Of a stretch of DNA of 57,793 bases, positions 15,034 to 21,423 are shown in pieces (the first letter of the stretch is position 1; every line of letters begins with the position of its first letter). The position numbers were made by a program, and so were the translations under genes. The notes below the pieces were generated by a model, which searched no databases, had not been told where the DNA came from, and worked only from the letters and a program-made list of their open reading frames with translations. This DNA comes from Thermoclostridium caenicola (GTDB lineage: Bacteria; Bacillota; Clostridia; DSM-8532): NCBI RefSeq assembly GCF_900142095.1, contig NZ_FQZP01000011.1, forward strand, positions 1 through 57,793, written 5' to 3'.

Positions 15034-15282
15034 TCAGGCCTCCGGCTCAGCGTCTCCCTTCAGCGGTCGGCCTTTCAGCCTGTCAATGACATCCCGGGAA
15101 CGCATGGTGGCCAACTGGTTCTCACTCCGGATCTCCTCATAGATTTCCTTGCGGTGCACGGCCACGCTCCTGGGCGCCTTAATCCCAAGCCGCACCTGGT
15201 CCCCCTGGATATCGATGAGGGATATCTCTATATCATGGCCGATCATGACCGATTGTCCTTTTTTTCTTGTCAGTACCAACAT
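15034..15282 (-). CDS. csrA: translational regulator CsrA
   Basis: An 82-residue RNA-binding homodimer subunit that recognises GGA in hairpin loops. Family hallmarks: MLVLTRKKGQSVMIG at the N terminus, the central DIEISLIDIQGDQVRLGIKAP and VAVHRKEIYEEI. The ATG at 15282 gives the canonical MLVLTRK start; a TTG three codons upstream is less likely. The C-terminal tail (about 60-82) is longer than E. coli CsrA, as in flagellar Firmicutes, where this tail is used by FliW. It sits 39 bases downstream of fliW, as in Bacillus. Likely target: the hag leader at 13225-13263. Confidence 0.97.
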   Translation of the reverse strand: MLVLTRKKGQSVMIGHDIEISLIDIQGDQVRLGIKAPRSVAVHRKEIYEEIRSENQLATMRSRDVIDRLKGRPLKGDAEPEA

Positions 15283-15321
15283 ATGGTTCAACCCCTTAAT
15301 CGCGCGGCGGCTTCGTTACTG

Positions 15322-15747
15322 TCATCGGTTGAGGTAGTACCGGATGGGCAGGGATTCGTCCTGCTGAAGCACCTGCTTGCCCAGTTTCTTTTCCACATTG
15401 ATGATGAGCGGCGCCTTCAGGTTCACCCTTATGTCCCTGGGATCTTCAGGAATGACCACAACGACCAGAGTCAATACCGTATCGGGGCTGGTGATGCCTA
15501 AAAACTCAACATCCGCATCCTCCAGCTTTACCTCATACCCATTATATATAACAAAGGGATCGGTGACAACAAAGCATATTTCAGGCCTTTCAAGGCTCTG
15601 GAGCCAGAAGAAGTTCACAAACCCTTCTCCCATGCTCAGCAGGGTAAACCTGCGAAGCTCCTCAAAGCCCGGTATGCCCTCGGGAAAGGTGATCACATCT
15701 TCCTCATGAATCTCGATGGCTCCAAAAGGCTCCGTATTGATTTGCAT
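15322..15747 (-). CDS. fliW: flagellar assembly factor FliW
   Basis: A 141-residue protein that sequesters CsrA and is itself titrated by newly made flagellin, coupling flagellin translation to export. Motifs: ITFPEGIPGFEEL, FFWLQSLERPEICFVV, DPFVIYNGYEVKL, and VIPEDPRDIRVNLKAPLIIN near the C terminus. The start at MQINTEPFG (15747) is chosen because GGAGGTGCTGCT precedes it; an upstream in-frame Met would run back over the flgL stop. It lies between flgL and csrA, the standard arrangement. Confidence 0.97.
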   Translation of the reverse strand: MQINTEPFGAIEIHEEDVITFPEGIPGFEELRRFTLLSMGEGFVNFFWLQSLERPEICFVVTDPFVIYNGYEVKLEDADVEFLGITSPDTVLTLVVVVIPEDPRDIRVNLKAPLIINVEKKLGKQVLQQDESLPIRYYLNR

Positions 15748-15785
15748 AGCAGCACCTCCAATATGTCCCGATGGCATGATGCGCA

Positions 15786-16715
15786 TCATTTCAGGTAATC
15801 AACCAGTGACGGCTGAATTACCCTGGCCGTGGTCGAGAGTGAAGCCTGATACACGTTTTGCTCGTTAAACAGGTTCATGATGGCCTCCGCCATATCCACG
15901 TCCTCATTGAGGCTCATGAGCTTGGTGAAATTCACATAGTCGTCGTCCAGGCGGTTGCTGGTCAGCTCGACGCGGTTCATCCTGGCACCGAGACCGGCCC
16001 GGACGCGGAGCAGGTTCTCTATTTCCAGATCCAGTTCCCCCAACAGGTTTGAAATCTTTTCATGCTGATTTTCACCAGGATCTAGCTCCTCGCCGTTTAT
16101 TGCCTTCTTAATGTTAACCAATGTACTGATTAATAAGCAATCGCCATCCTCGGCAGCATCATTTGCCCGGTTGAACAGATCGCTTCCCGGCACGTTCACG
16201 TTGATTCTATCGCCTATGCCGATCTCGAACTGGATAAATTCATCTTTCGCAACATCAACATTAAATGTTCCATCACTCTTCAGCAGAGGTTTGTCGGTTT
16301 TAAAGCCGGAGAAGATGTAGCGCCCGGCGTAAGAAGTATTGGCCAGCTGAATGACCTGCGTGATAAGTTCCTGGGCCTCTGCGCCTATCTTTTGCAAATC
16401 ATCAGGCGTATTGGTTCCGTTGGCGGCCTGCACGGTTATCTCCCTGAAACGCTGGAGAACGTCATTGATCTGGTTCATGGTGGCCTCGGTGATCGCCATC
16501 CAGGAAAGGGCATCATCCATATTCCTGCTGTACTGCTGTATCTCGGCCACGTCAGTCCTGAGCTTCAGCGCCCTGGAGGCCACGATGGGATCATCAGAGG
16601 GCATGCTGATCTTCTTTCCCGTGGCCAGCTGATTCTGGTATTTCATCGTCCTGTTCAGGTTGCTGGACAAATGCGTCATGATATTGTTAATGAGCATGTT
16701 ATTGGTGATTCTCAT
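15786..16715 (-). CDS. flgL: hook-filament junction protein FlgL (HAP3)
   Basis: A 309-residue junction protein between FlgK and the filament. The N terminus (MRITNNMLINNIMTHLSSNL) and the flagellin-like coiled coil with GKKISMPSDDPIVASRALKLR identify it; AYAGRY-type NTSYAGRYIFSGF is the usual FlgL landmark, and the C terminus has the expected NLFNEQNVYQASLSTTARV. The middle (about 145-215) is the variable domain and is AT-richer than its flanks. Start supported by GGGAGGTAGGG. It is 46 bases from flgK1. Confidence 0.95.
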   Translation of the reverse strand: MRITNNMLINNIMTHLSSNLNRTMKYQNQLATGKKISMPSDDPIVASRALKLRTDVAEIQQYSRNMDDALSWMAITEATMNQINDVLQRFREITVQAANGTNTPDDLQKIGAEAQELITQVIQLANTSYAGRYIFSGFKTDKPLLKSDGTFNVDVAKDEFIQFEIGIGDRINVNVPGSDLFNRANDAAEDGDCLLISTLVNIKKAINGEELDPGENQHEKISNLLGELDLEIENLLRVRAGLGARMNRVELTSNRLDDDYVNFTKLMSLNEDVDMAEAIMNLFNEQNVYQASLSTTARVIQPSLVDYLK

Positions 16716-16761: not shown

Positions 16762-18411
16762 CTATACGCCCAGCCGGTTGATCAGGATGTCCAGAACTTC
16801 CGAATAAGCCTGGATCATCTTGGCAGCCGCCCCATAGACCTGCTGGTACTTGACCAGGTTAACCATTTCCTCGTTCAGGGAAACACCGGATATGGATTGC
16901 CTTCTGCCCTCAATCTGCTTTACTACGCCCTCCTGGATGCCCAGGTAGATGGAAGCCTGCTGTCCGTCCACGCCCATGGTGGATATGAGGGTTTTGATGA
17001 AGTCCTCGCCGGTACCTTCCATGAACATATGGGTATTGTGCCGCATCTCAATGAGCTTGAGCAAATTGTTATTGTTCCCGATCTCTCCGGCTTGATCTGA
17101 GGCCGCAATATTCTCCACCGGATCAGAGTCAATCTCAAAACTGATGGAGAAGTTCCTGGCGGTGAGGATCCCGTATCCGGCGACCAGCTTATCAAAATTC
17201 GACGCAGTAACCCCTTTGGCCTCCGCATACTTATATACCTCTGATTCAAATTGATCGCTGCTCATGGGCTTGCCTTCATCATCCAGCATGGTGAAGAAGC
17301 GACCGGCCGGAGCTCCGGACAGGGTATACCCGTCCACATGGCCATCTGCATCATTCAGAACGCCATCACCGTCAATGTCTATTATCCCTTCATTGAATGC
17401 GCGGGCAAAGACCTGGACAAACTCGTTCATCTTGCGCTGGTAGTAGGGGATGCCCATGCAGCTCGGGCTGTTGCCGCTGCCGTTCAGCGCAGGCAACCCG
17501 TCGTTGCCATCCCTCATGTCCAGGTAGCCCTTAAGCTCGCCGGACTTGATTTTGAGCTTGTTGCCGTCCTCCCAGACAACCTCATAGAGGTTGTCAATAT
17601 CCTCAAAATTCAGTTTTTCTTCACGGGTAACGCACTTGAGATGGACAACGCTTCCATGATCCACCAGGGCCTTGCCGCTGATTGCCACGACAAAACGTTT
17701 CTCCGGCATGCCGTTGGGCAGCGTATAACCGGTTTCCACCTCATAGGCGTCACAGTTAACCAGTTGAGCCAGCTTGTCCACAAGATAGGTGCGCTGATCC
17801 CTGAGATCATTGGCCGTGTAGCCCATGACCTCAAAATTGTAGATCTGCATATTCAGCTTCTGGATCTGATCGGCCAGGGTATTGATCTCCTCCACCTTGG
17901 CGTAGACCATGTTGTTCAGATCCTCCTGGAGGTGGTCAAAATGGGCGGCCACGCTGTTGAAGTATTTGGCCACCGCAATACCCTTCTCCTTCACCGCATT
18001 CCGGATGCTGTGGCTTGAAGGATCGGTGGACAACTGCTGCAGCGCATCATAGAAATCGCTGATGATCTTGGAGAAGCCGCTGTCCGACGGCTCGTTGTAT
18101 ATGGCCTGCAAATCAAGCAGGATGGTGTGCTTCACATACCACTCGCCAAAATGCTGGATTTCGCCCCAGTATTTCTCGTCCAGGTAGGTATCCCGGATCC
18201 GGTCCACCGAGACCACGTCGGAACCCATGCCCACCATACCGACCCTTCCGGCCATCAGCATGGGGCGGGCCGCCTTCTGGTTGACGACCTGCCTGGAATA
18301 TCCCGGCGTATTGGTATTATCCACGTTATGGCTTACGGTAGCCATACCCCTCTGTGATGAATAGAGTCCCCTCAGGGCGATTTCCATTCCCAGAAACGCG
18401 GAATTGCTCAT
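16762..18411 (-). CDS. flgK: hook-filament junction protein FlgK (HAP1), paralogue 1
   Basis: A 549-residue FlgK of ordinary length. The N-terminal rod/hook motif LYSSQRGMATVSHNVDNTNTPGYSRQ is intact, the long helical D1 region follows (about 85-205), and the C terminus ends with the conserved SISGVSLNEEMVNLVKYQQ and YSEVLDILINRL. At the point where paralogue 2 carries a large inserted domain (after the GYLDMRD strand, about residue 300), this protein has only a linker of about 20 residues. It probably supplies the standard junction function. Start supported by AGGGAGGAG. Confidence 0.95.
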   Translation of the reverse strand: MSNSAFLGMEIALRGLYSSQRGMATVSHNVDNTNTPGYSRQVVNQKAARPMLMAGRVGMVGMGSDVVSVDRIRDTYLDEKYWGEIQHFGEWYVKHTILLDLQAIYNEPSDSGFSKIISDFYDALQQLSTDPSSHSIRNAVKEKGIAVAKYFNSVAAHFDHLQEDLNNMVYAKVEEINTLADQIQKLNMQIYNFEVMGYTANDLRDQRTYLVDKLAQLVNCDAYEVETGYTLPNGMPEKRFVVAISGKALVDHGSVVHLKCVTREEKLNFEDIDNLYEVVWEDGNKLKIKSGELKGYLDMRDGNDGLPALNGSGNSPSCMGIPYYQRKMNEFVQVFARAFNEGIIDIDGDGVLNDADGHVDGYTLSGAPAGRFFTMLDDEGKPMSSDQFESEVYKYAEAKGVTASNFDKLVAGYGILTARNFSISFEIDSDPVENIAASDQAGEIGNNNNLLKLIEMRHNTHMFMEGTGEDFIKTLISTMGVDGQQASIYLGIQEGVVKQIEGRRQSISGVSLNEEMVNLVKYQQVYGAAAKMIQAYSEVLDILINRLGV

Positions 18412-18453: not shown

Positions 18454-20505
18454 TCATCTGCCGGCCAGACCCAGGCGATAGATGAGGGTTTCCAGCATGC
18501 TGTCGATCACGTTTATGATTTTCGAATTGGCGTTATAGGCATACTTGAACTTGATCATATTGGTCATCTCCTCATCCAGGGAGACACCCATAATGGACTG
18601 CCTGAGCTGATCAGCCTGCTGAACCAGCTTCTTTTGGCTTTCCAGCATGTTGGCAGCCTCCTGACCCTTATTGCCCACATCCATGATGATGTTCTGGTAA
18701 TAGGTATCCAGGCTCAGCACCTTGCCATTGCCCGTCATCAGGTTGGCATTTCTCAGCCCTGCAATCCTGAGGGCCAGGGTGTTGTCGCCGTTGGCATCGA
18801 TGGCAGAGGCCACAATATTGTTAAAGTCATTCAGGCTGCCTGCAACCATCAGATTGCCCATTTCTATGGGCAATTCATCGTTCACCGGCTCAAAGAACAG
18901 GCCGCCGTCAGCACCATTCAGGGTTTTTCCCGACTGATGGATGTAATTGATCTCGCGGGCCATAATGTTGATAAGGGCGTTCAGCTGCTTCTTCACCGAG
19001 GAGATAATGTTCAGATCCTCGGGTATGGTGGAAATCTTCATGTTGACGTCATCATTGATGCCCTTGCTGATGGCTCTCATCAAGTCCACATAGCCGGTGC
19101 TTGTAATGTCATAAAGGCGTCCGGTAAGGGCATCCCAGCCACTTTCACCGGTATCGTCGGAACCGCTATAGTTATCCGTTTTGGTAGCTACCGACAGGGT
19201 AAAGCCATGGGCATTGAGCTTTTCCTGATAGGTCTTGATATCATCGCTGCTTGCCGTCGAACCATCCCCGTTCAGGCTGTCGCCGGTAAACATCAGAAGA
19301 TACCTGTTGACCTCCGGATTCAGCGTGGAGATTGCCTCTCCGGCCTTGTCGATAACATCCCCGAAATCATAGGTATATTCAACAGTCACAGGAACGCTGG
19401 ATGTAATCTTGTTGATAAGAGCGTCCACATCTCTGCCGAAATTCACGCTTTCGAATTCAGTGGCGCCATCTACACCGATGACCATGAGCCGGAGATTATA
19501 GTCCAATCCCCGTTTTCTGAGATCCTCGGCCAATTCCCGAATATTATTCTGAAGCTTGGTACGGTAGTCGTCCGTAGTATTGTTCGCTATGTCCACGACA
19601 ATGGTAACATCCGCCGTGGTGTTGGGCGTGCCGTTGTCATAGCTTCCCTTGGCGCCGCTGACCTGCCCCCTGGCTTCCAGCAGGCCCTGAATCAGCCCCT
19701 GCCCCAGATGGATCTCCACATCAAAGCCCTCCACCATGGGGGTATAGAACTGGGAAAGATCATCGCTGGGCTGAGCGTAAATCCTTGTCTGTTTTCCCTT
19801 GCTGACAAGGTAATAACCTCCCACCATGATATCCATATTGCCTTCAGGGCCAAGATAAGTCTCTGCTTTTACAAGGGTGGAAAGCCTGTCCACCAGGGCA
19901 TTTCTTTCATCATAGTAGTCGTTGGGCGTATTTCCCGCCGCTTCGGCGCTCATGATCTTGATGTTGAGATCGGCAATTTTTTGTGTGATCTCATTCACTT
20001 CATCGATTCGAAGCTTTATCTCATTGTTCAGATCCTTCTGCAGCTTGTTGAGCTGGGCGCCGATATGGTTGATGCAATCGACCAGAGCATCGGCCCTTTG
20101 CTTGAGCAGGGCACGGATGGTCAGGCTCTCAGGAGCTTTGGAAAGTTCCTGCCAGCCATCCCAAAACCGGTTCAGCGCGCTCTGAAGCCCTTCGGCCATA
20201 GGTTCAGCCAGAATGGCCTGCAGATCGTTGAGGGCCGTGCTTCTGGCTTCCCAATACCCCTGGGCATTGGTTTCAACCCTATAGATATTATCCAGGAACA
20301 GGTGCCGGATCTGGCGGATCTGCTGGATGCTCACGCCCATTTCCACTTTCCAGTTGCCGTAAACGTGCGGAAGGGCAGTCGCCATGATAACCCCCTGGCG
20401 GGCAAAGCCTGCGGTTCCCAGGTTGGAAACATTGTGACCGGTTACCTCAAGGGCCCTCTGGTTCGCTGATAAGCCTGATACGGCATAATTTAATCCAGGA
20501 ATCAC
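18454..20505 (-). CDS. FlgK paralogue 2 with inserted VWA-like domain
   Basis: A 683-residue FlgK-family protein. The N terminus (SANQRALEVTGHNVSNLGTA) and C terminus (SIMGVSLDEEMTNMIKFKYA, then SMLETLIYRLG) are standard hook-associated ends, and the D1 helices are present (about 85-215). Residues about 295-490 form an extra domain with a von Willebrand A pattern: TADVTIVVDIANN (first strand, metal-loop position), LMVIGVDG, RYLLMFTGDSLNGDG, then FTLSVATK. The metal-binding DxSxS is changed to DIANN, so metal binding is doubtful. The domain enters between GLLEARG and the KKQLNALINIMAREIN helix. GTG start after TTAGGAGGTGA. It lies 42 bases upstream of flgK1 in the same transcript. Confidence 0.85.
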   Translation of the reverse strand: MIPGLNYAVSGLSANQRALEVTGHNVSNLGTAGFARQGVIMATALPHVYGNWKVEMGVSIQQIRQIRHLFLDNIYRVETNAQGYWEARSTALNDLQAILAEPMAEGLQSALNRFWDGWQELSKAPESLTIRALLKQRADALVDCINHIGAQLNKLQKDLNNEIKLRIDEVNEITQKIADLNIKIMSAEAAGNTPNDYYDERNALVDRLSTLVKAETYLGPEGNMDIMVGGYYLVSKGKQTRIYAQPSDDLSQFYTPMVEGFDVEIHLGQGLIQGLLEARGQVSGAKGSYDNGTPNTTADVTIVVDIANNTTDDYRTKLQNNIRELAEDLRKRGLDYNLRLMVIGVDGATEFESVNFGRDVDALINKITSSVPVTVEYTYDFGDVIDKAGEAISTLNPEVNRYLLMFTGDSLNGDGSTASSDDIKTYQEKLNAHGFTLSVATKTDNYSGSDDTGESGWDALTGRLYDITSTGYVDLMRAISKGINDDVNMKISTIPEDLNIISSVKKQLNALINIMAREINYIHQSGKTLNGADGGLFFEPVNDELPIEMGNLMVAGSLNDFNNIVASAIDANGDNTLALRIAGLRNANLMTGNGKVLSLDTYYQNIIMDVGNKGQEAANMLESQKKLVQQADQLRQSIMGVSLDEEMTNMIKFKYAYNANSKIINVIDSMLETLIYRLGLAGR

Positions 20506-20518
20506 CCTGCGTCACCTC

Positions 20519-21022
20519 CTAATACCGGATATCCAGCATGCTTCTTTTCCCGCCGGTCGATATTTCCGTACCGGACTTGCCGTAAACCGATGCTTCGGGT
20601 GCCGGACCCGCCATCAGTTCCAGGTTAAAATTGATATATTCCAGCGCATTTTCTATGAGCTTCTGGTTGATGCCGTTCCGGAGCATCAGCTGCATCACGG
20701 TTTCCTTCAGCCTGGCCCTGATATCGGCAAGCTGCGCCGCCTGCGGCTCGGACAGAAGCTTTTCAGCCTCCTCCAGGGAAGCATTGGCAGCGAGCCCGAG
20801 AGCCTCGTTGAGCTTTGCGGCATATTGCTCGCGCACTCTGGCCAGTTGTTTGCTTTGCTCTGCCAGTTTGCCTTCTTCCTCTGTGAGAGCCGACAACTGG
20901 GCAGTGTCATGCCTGACCAGGACATCGGTTTTTTTCTCGGCCAGTTTCAGAAGCTCTTGATAGATGCGCCATTCATACTGAAGCGCTTTCATCAGGTTTT
21001 CGGTCAGCTTGACATCCGGCAT
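20519..21022 (-). CDS. flgN: flagellar export chaperone FlgN
   Basis: A 167-residue helical protein of the FlgN family, which keeps FlgK and FlgL soluble for export. Recognisable by the long coiled coil with alternating Leu/Glu (about 5-130), the LLKLAEKKTDVLV segment and the C-terminal FNLELMAGP-type end before a Gly/Ser-rich tail. It directly precedes flgK2 (13-base gap) and follows flgM, the usual flgM-flgN-flgK order, which strengthens the call. Start supported by GGAGTGACAG. Confidence 0.85.
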   Translation of the reverse strand: MPDVKLTENLMKALQYEWRIYQELLKLAEKKTDVLVRHDTAQLSALTEEEGKLAEQSKQLARVREQYAAKLNEALGLAANASLEEAEKLLSEPQAAQLADIRARLKETVMQLMLRNGINQKLIENALEYINFNLELMAGPAPEASVYGKSGTEISTGGKRSMLDIRY

Positions 21023-21138: not shown

Positions 21139-21423
21139 TCAGAACCCCCTCATCATGAGTTCCGTTATCTTGGCGGCGACATCCTTGGCTGATACAGCAT
21201 ATTCGCCCCTGTTGATCCTTTCCAGTATCGCGTCAACCTTATCCTTCCGGATATCCGGAACATCCCTCAGGGCTTTCATGGCAACGGAAAAATCCCTGGC
21301 AGGACCCGACAGGGTGAGCTGATCCTTTTTGGATGCCACAGCATGGCTTTTTGACAGCTTTTCAGTTGCGCCGGTATTACCATAAATACCGGTAATTTTG
21401 GGCACGTCACCCCAAATCTTCAT
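21139..21423 (-). CDS. flgM: anti-sigma-28 factor FlgM
   Basis: A 94-residue FlgM. The conserved C-terminal sigma-binding region is visible (RKDKVDAILERINRGEYAVSAKDVAAKITE), and the N terminus is Gly/Thr/Lys-rich and likely unfolded. It holds sigma-D inactive until export through the finished hook. A sigma-D-like promoter just upstream (21517-21543) would give the usual feedback. It lies between yvyF and flgN. Start supported by AAGAGGGGTAA. Confidence 0.93.
   Translation of the reverse strand: MKIWGDVPKITGIYGNTGATEKLSKSHAVASKKDQLTLSGPARDFSVAMKALRDVPDIRKDKVDAILERINRGEYAVSAKDVAAKITELMMRGF

Follow-up and report, generated by a model that had tools for sequence, protein, structure and literature searches.

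Many clostridia, including the digester bacterium analyzed here (Thermoclostridium caenicola), make two FlgK proteins, which connect hook and filament of the flagellum. One of them contains an integrin-like VWA domain devoid of its metal site, so that each flagellum is probably surrounded at its base by a ring of these domains. We are close to certain of the anatomy and the history of this VWA-bearing protein (FlgK1). Within the window (i.e., the whole analyzed stretch of 57,793 nt), both flgK genes belong to a late flagellar gene row located on the minus strand, comprising the following features:

21139..21423, minus strand: flgM, anti-sigma-28 factor (PF04316, E 2e-15)
20519..21022, minus strand: flgN, FlgK/FlgL export chaperone, directly upstream of flgK1 (PF05130, E 2e-25)
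18454..20505, minus strand: flgK1, FlgK with the inserted VWA domain, 683 aa, GTG start (TIGR02492, 306 bits)
19006..19653, minus strand: insert within flgK1 as used for profiles, alignments and AlphaFold2 folding, residues 285-500 (conserved linker AKGSYDNGTPN, VWA and C-terminal linker)
19030..19626, minus strand: predicted VWA fold proper, residues ~294-492 (VIA Z 16-17; Pfam VWA in the best relative)
16762..18411, minus strand: flgK2, second, VWA-less FlgK paralogue, 549 aa (TIGR02492, 298 bits), in a separate clade of the tree
15786..16715, minus strand: flgL, 309 aa, next gene in the row (Pfam Flagellin_N/C)
15322..15789, minus strand: fliW (PF02623, E 3e-39)
15034..15291, minus strand: csrA (PF02599, E 8e-26)

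The coding sequence of flgK1 (18457-20505, followed by the stop codon) starts with GTG preceded by the Shine-Dalgarno sequence AGGAGG, and flgK2, whose ATG is preceded by a Shine-Dalgarno sequence of its own (GGAGG), begins 42 nt past the flgK1 stop. The two adjoining flgK genes of 683 and 549 residues reported in the earlier note were thereby confirmed in coordinates and lengths, their strand being the minus one. Both products are FlgK proteins, as their TIGR02492 scores (306.5 bits for FlgK1 and 298 bits for FlgK2) exceed the equivalog cut-off of 170.75, and both retain the N- and C-terminal polymerisation (D0) segments. In FlgK1, the terminal segments match PF00460 and PF06429, and the D1 helical bundle matches PF22638 (E 2.5e-47). 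Identity between the two proteins is only about 36% in the first 220 residues and 38% in the last 116. The gene order flgN-flgK1-flgK2-flgL fits an assembly in which FlgK1 would be placed between the hook and FlgL. Antisense to flgK1, a 611-aa open frame was found (window positions 18634-20469, plus strand), which is very probably a side effect of codon usage.

The landmarks GLLEARG and KKQLNALI are separated by a linker of about 20 residues in FlgK2 of the window and by 21-63 residues in the closest VWA-less FlgK1 proteins, whereas in FlgK1 they lie about 215 residues apart, which bears out the insert described previously at this site. Its folding as a VWA domain is well supported by modelling. 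The AlphaFold2 model of the insert (mean pLDDT 71, pTM 0.73) has the order b-a-b-b-a-a-b-a-b-a-b-a, i.e., an alternating beta-alpha fold plus an antiparallel edge strand, as a VWA domain requires. Its best matches were integrin I and other VWA domains (VIA Z ~17, 177 aligned residues, 2.9 A), the VWA domains of integrin alphaM, CMG2 and Rpn10 being among those with Z of 16-17, and Foldseek returned VWA matches at E ~1e-7. In the full-length model of FlgK1, in which D0 is of low confidence, the scaffold superposes on Salmonella FlgK (2d4y; Z 33.5, 2.0 A over 340 residues), and VWA domains are matched by the VWA region alone (Z ~16). The Pfam VWA score of the window insert is only suggestive (15.8 bits, below the gathering threshold of 23.8; E 0.017 for the insert alone). 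The same profile matched 9 of 13 family members (best E 8e-11), and a relative from the family f54 (L195) reached 33.6 bits, over the curated cut-off of 23.8. Structure prediction, fold comparison and the profile search of relatives therefore agree on the VWA-like fold anticipated in the earlier note, and the Z of ~17 to integrin I domains contradicts the alternative named there, a fold unlike VWA.

In the model of FlgK1, a short helix (271-279) is followed by the VWA domain and then by the helix 500-524, both helices belonging to D1; the domain splits the D1 helical bundle in its third segment and leaves the surrounding scaffold intact. The insertion point aligns with a 14-residue insertion of Campylobacter jejuni FlgK (Gly300-Gly313), which separates helix alpha6 from alpha7 in the third D1 segment, just past D1b, an exposed sub-domain on the outer surface of the FlgK ring contacting the hook protein FlgE (PMC5691160). 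As D1 is already broken at this point in C. jejuni FlgK, the VWA domain occupies a tolerated break in D1. This is not the exposed central domain that the earlier note had implied for the insert: it follows GLLEARG and precedes the long D1 helix, while D2 of C. jejuni FlgK (Ser340-Asn499) comes after that helix. A D2 domain is absent from FlgK1, and the position of the insert rules it out as a variant of D2 or D3. FlgK1 thus shares the D0/D1 scaffold and D1b with FlgK proteins of Salmonella, Burkholderia and Campylobacter (2d4y, 9go6, 4ut1 and 5xbj; Z 29-33.5), but these proteins carry D2 after the long D1 helix (and additionally D3 in Burkholderia), whereas FlgK1 is D2-less and has a VWA domain in the D1 break. 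Likewise, the insertion point between alpha6 and alpha7 is common to FlgK1 and C. jejuni FlgK, but the short loop of the latter is replaced by a whole domain in the former.

The earlier claim that the insert of the window copy has no DxSxS motif held, since its loops read DIANN, YDF and FTG, and the loop-2 Thr and the loop-3 Asp are also missing. In the alignment of 42 insert members, a complete metal site (MIDAS) was found in none; DxSxS is present in only five, the third-loop Asp in seven, both together in no member, and the loop-2 Thr is mostly replaced by Asn/Asp. The first-loop Ser is missing in the genus of the window (DIAN, DAAN) and in one further genome (G016). The nearest ordinary VWA domains of related genomes read D-[TA]-T-G-S-M in the first loop and FTD or LTD in the third. 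Judging from these residues, canonical metal-dependent ligation is lost family-wide, beyond this genome.

Of 391 genomes of the class, 38 contained a match to the insert profile. Apart from one that ends at a contig edge and is shorter, the strong matches (E below 1e-30) are FlgKs of 659-779 aa, as are the split copies in G185 and G025, and four weak matches (G364, G298, G307, and G205) are ordinary VWA proteins. At least eight GTDB families have the inserted domain in FlgK1 (f1, f2, f24, f26, f54, f64, f76, f80, and f87 are among the families bearing it), and its conservation there indicates that the insert is not a chance event. Throughout the survey of the class, a VWA insertion was never met in FlgK2. 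Beyond the class, no further FlgK-sized protein matched the insert in a sample of 398 genomes of the phylum; the matches were proteins of 1100-1830 aa with weak VWA scores only. Several FlgKs depart from this picture in size. In G025 (L034/L045 374-2350), the VWA domain of FlgK1 is shrunken, its middle (approximately strands b2-b3 and helix a2) being missing and the frame kept. Three Syntrophomonadaceae FlgKs (L074, L087, and L096) of about 845 aa have long inserts beyond the D1 region, for which a Pfam scan of L074 and L087 gave no name, and FlgK2 proteins of the family f24 (L122 and L123; ~700-720 aa) exceed those of other families by about 150 aa, the extra part having no Pfam name (L123 scanned).

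In the tree of 111 FlgKs, FlgK1 and FlgK2 formed separate clades covering identical families, i.e., by their phylogeny they are old sister clades. Wherever the downstream sequence was long enough for a check (51 genomes or records, some genomes being counted twice, in two collections), the gene of a VWA-bearing FlgK1 is directly followed by that of FlgK2. The earlier note had considered that the copies might be recent degenerate duplicates; this was rejected, as the clades are old and both ends of the proteins are intact. One bin in the family of the window (L124, G029) has two VWA-less FlgKs grouping with those of the family f22, and it probably contains a mis-binned contig. Within genera of the family f54 the distribution is mosaic: the domain is present in G245 and G405 and absent from G115, and likewise present in G347 and G408 and absent from G298 and G406. 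The presence of VWA requires at least five changes on the FlgK tree, which for this count was built without most insert columns, and a single gain with about four subsequent losses is the preferred reading. The insert tree shows the main groups of the backbone tree, and shuffling of the domain by horizontal transfer was therefore discarded. In the family f22, placed just outside, the FlgK1 linker is VWA-less yet already reads KGSIENGSP; the domain thus entered a pre-existing linker.

In close pairs, dN/dS is ~0.09-0.42 for the insert and 0.04-0.20 for the FlgK core; the rate of evolution of the insert is 2-3 times that of the core (identity of 0.35 where that of the core is 0.54), and the frames are open in all intact members. 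By these values, the insert is under purifying selection, i.e., maintained, although less constrained than the core. Its highest conservation falls on the linker NGxPN, with invariant N, G, and P; within the VWA domain, the most conserved residues are W173, G178, G49, and D21 (insert numbering). A search for a conserved ligand-binding patch in the insert revealed no clear one.

With regard to the partner proteins, in 24 genomes the sizes of FlgE (~445-526 aa) and FlgL (~300-330 aa) overlap between those with and without VWA, so the partners are not visibly dependent on the domain, which argues against a Campylobacter-like co-divergence with a longer hook. Where the contig is complete, each of these 24 genomes has one full-length FlgE, and the window genome has a single FlgE; hence a single type of hook must be shared by the two FlgKs. 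The FlgK-FlgL contacts were checked at the equivalents of Salmonella Q111, Q118, and D519. The last of them is D in 55 of 55 FlgK1 proteins and D or N in FlgK2, a difference that is only suggestive of which FlgK contacts FlgL.

We propose that FlgK1 functions as a junction protein between hook and filament, with a metal-independent VWA domain spliced into the D1 bundle beside D1b. Once exported, the subunits of the FlgK ring would carry up to 11 VWA domains, arranged like a collar around the outer rim of the junction on its hook-proximal side; this collar would not be required for building the junction and may act as a contact or binding module, its putative ligand being the cell envelope, a fibre, a partner cell or a neighbouring axial subunit. 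We infer the surface position, the 11-copy collar and the binding role from several lines of evidence: the site adjoins D1b, on the outer surface of the ring in C. jejuni FlgK (PMC5691160), the domain was repeatedly lost (~4 times), its constraint is loose, the sizes of FlgE and FlgL are unaffected, and other VWA proteins of appendages, Mfa5 and SpaC, both structurally matched by the insert, are adhesins. On the other hand, the linker is the most conserved part, which could mean docking on D1 and a structural role, and we assume that the site is exposed in the ring of clostridia, while in the Salmonella junction the D1 helices of FlgK are buried (PMC12221982). We consider that VWA is a dispensable displayed contact domain with a confidence somewhat short of an even chance.

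The main rival explanation, possible but rather unlikely in our opinion, is a structural one, in which VWA would give the junction stiffness or padding by packing on D1b, on FlgE or on the layer of FlgK2. A parallel is offered by C. jejuni FlgK, whose additional domain is thought to act so with its hook, and this explanation agrees with the vicinity of the hook-contacting D1b (PMC5691160), with the conservation of the linker, with FlgK2 following FlgK1 in 51 of 51 cases, and with the proposal that FlgK elasticity at discontinuous D1 helices buffers stress (PMC12221982), the insertion lying in such a break. However, about four losses occurred without a visible change in the size of FlgE, FlgL or FlgK2, the insert changes 2-3 times as fast as the core, and the conserved linker is older than the domain, as the VWA-less FlgK1 of f22 shows. 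Faster evolution and repeated loss would also suit a bulky domain shielding the junction against flagellotropic phages or antibodies, but this is improbable, since dN/dS is not elevated (all values under 0.5) and no hypervariable loops were singled out.

A degenerate passenger, captured once and now in neutral decay, could explain the repeated loss, the shrunken copy of G025 and the lack of a full MIDAS in every member; the selection result already disfavours it, as dN/dS is well under 1 in every close pair, frames are open in all intact members and Gly/Trp/Pro residues are invariant across families, and we give it little credence. That VWA still binds metal via a reduced MIDAS, as a classical metal-dependent adhesin, is very improbable: the first Asp (D21) is retained in 41 of the 42 members and a Ser at position 23 in 37, but DxSxS and the third-loop Asp never occur together, the loop-2 Thr is mostly Asn/Asp, and the window copy has DIANN and FTG.

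The displayed contact domain proposed here has partial counterparts in several known systems. The fold and the order of strands and helices are those of VWA and integrin I domains (8ce6, 1mf7, 1shu, and LapA 9no5), which, unlike FlgK1, are not in a flagellar axial protein and have a full MIDAS. Among the VIA structure matches of the insert model are Mfa5 (6tnj), a fimbrial tip VWA adhesin (PMC7835359), and SpaC (6m48) of pili; these, too, have VWA on an extracellular appendage, as FlgK1 would, but at the tip of non-flagellar appendages and not at the flagellar base. Flagellinolysin (PMC5595980) is also a case of a foreign globular domain in a flagellar axial protein, with clostridia among its hosts; that domain is a metallopeptidase, located in the hypervariable region of flagellin and present in thousands of copies, whereas the protein described here is a FlgK, its insert is a VWA domain, and the copies would number about 11. 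No paper linking FlgK with VWA, or describing two FlgK genes in one system, was found in the open-access literature.

The presence of adjacent FlgKs in all genomes checked, together with a single hook, raises a testable question of junction layering, as modelling predicts a clash of two stacked FlgK layers in Salmonella (PMC12221982). It is conceivable, although doubtful, that one clade of clostridia builds a three-protein junction (FlgK1-VWA, FlgK2, and FlgL), with FlgK1 as a layer of its own whose metal-free VWA collar is a basal adhesive or sensing ring; if true, this would be a second FlgK layer, precisely the arrangement predicted to clash. Natural comparisons are offered by genera in which some species have the domain and others lack it. 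The hook-filament junction is usually seen as a passive adapter, but many genera have made it the carrier of a binding-type domain, much as some flagellins carry proteases and some pili have VWA domains at their tips.
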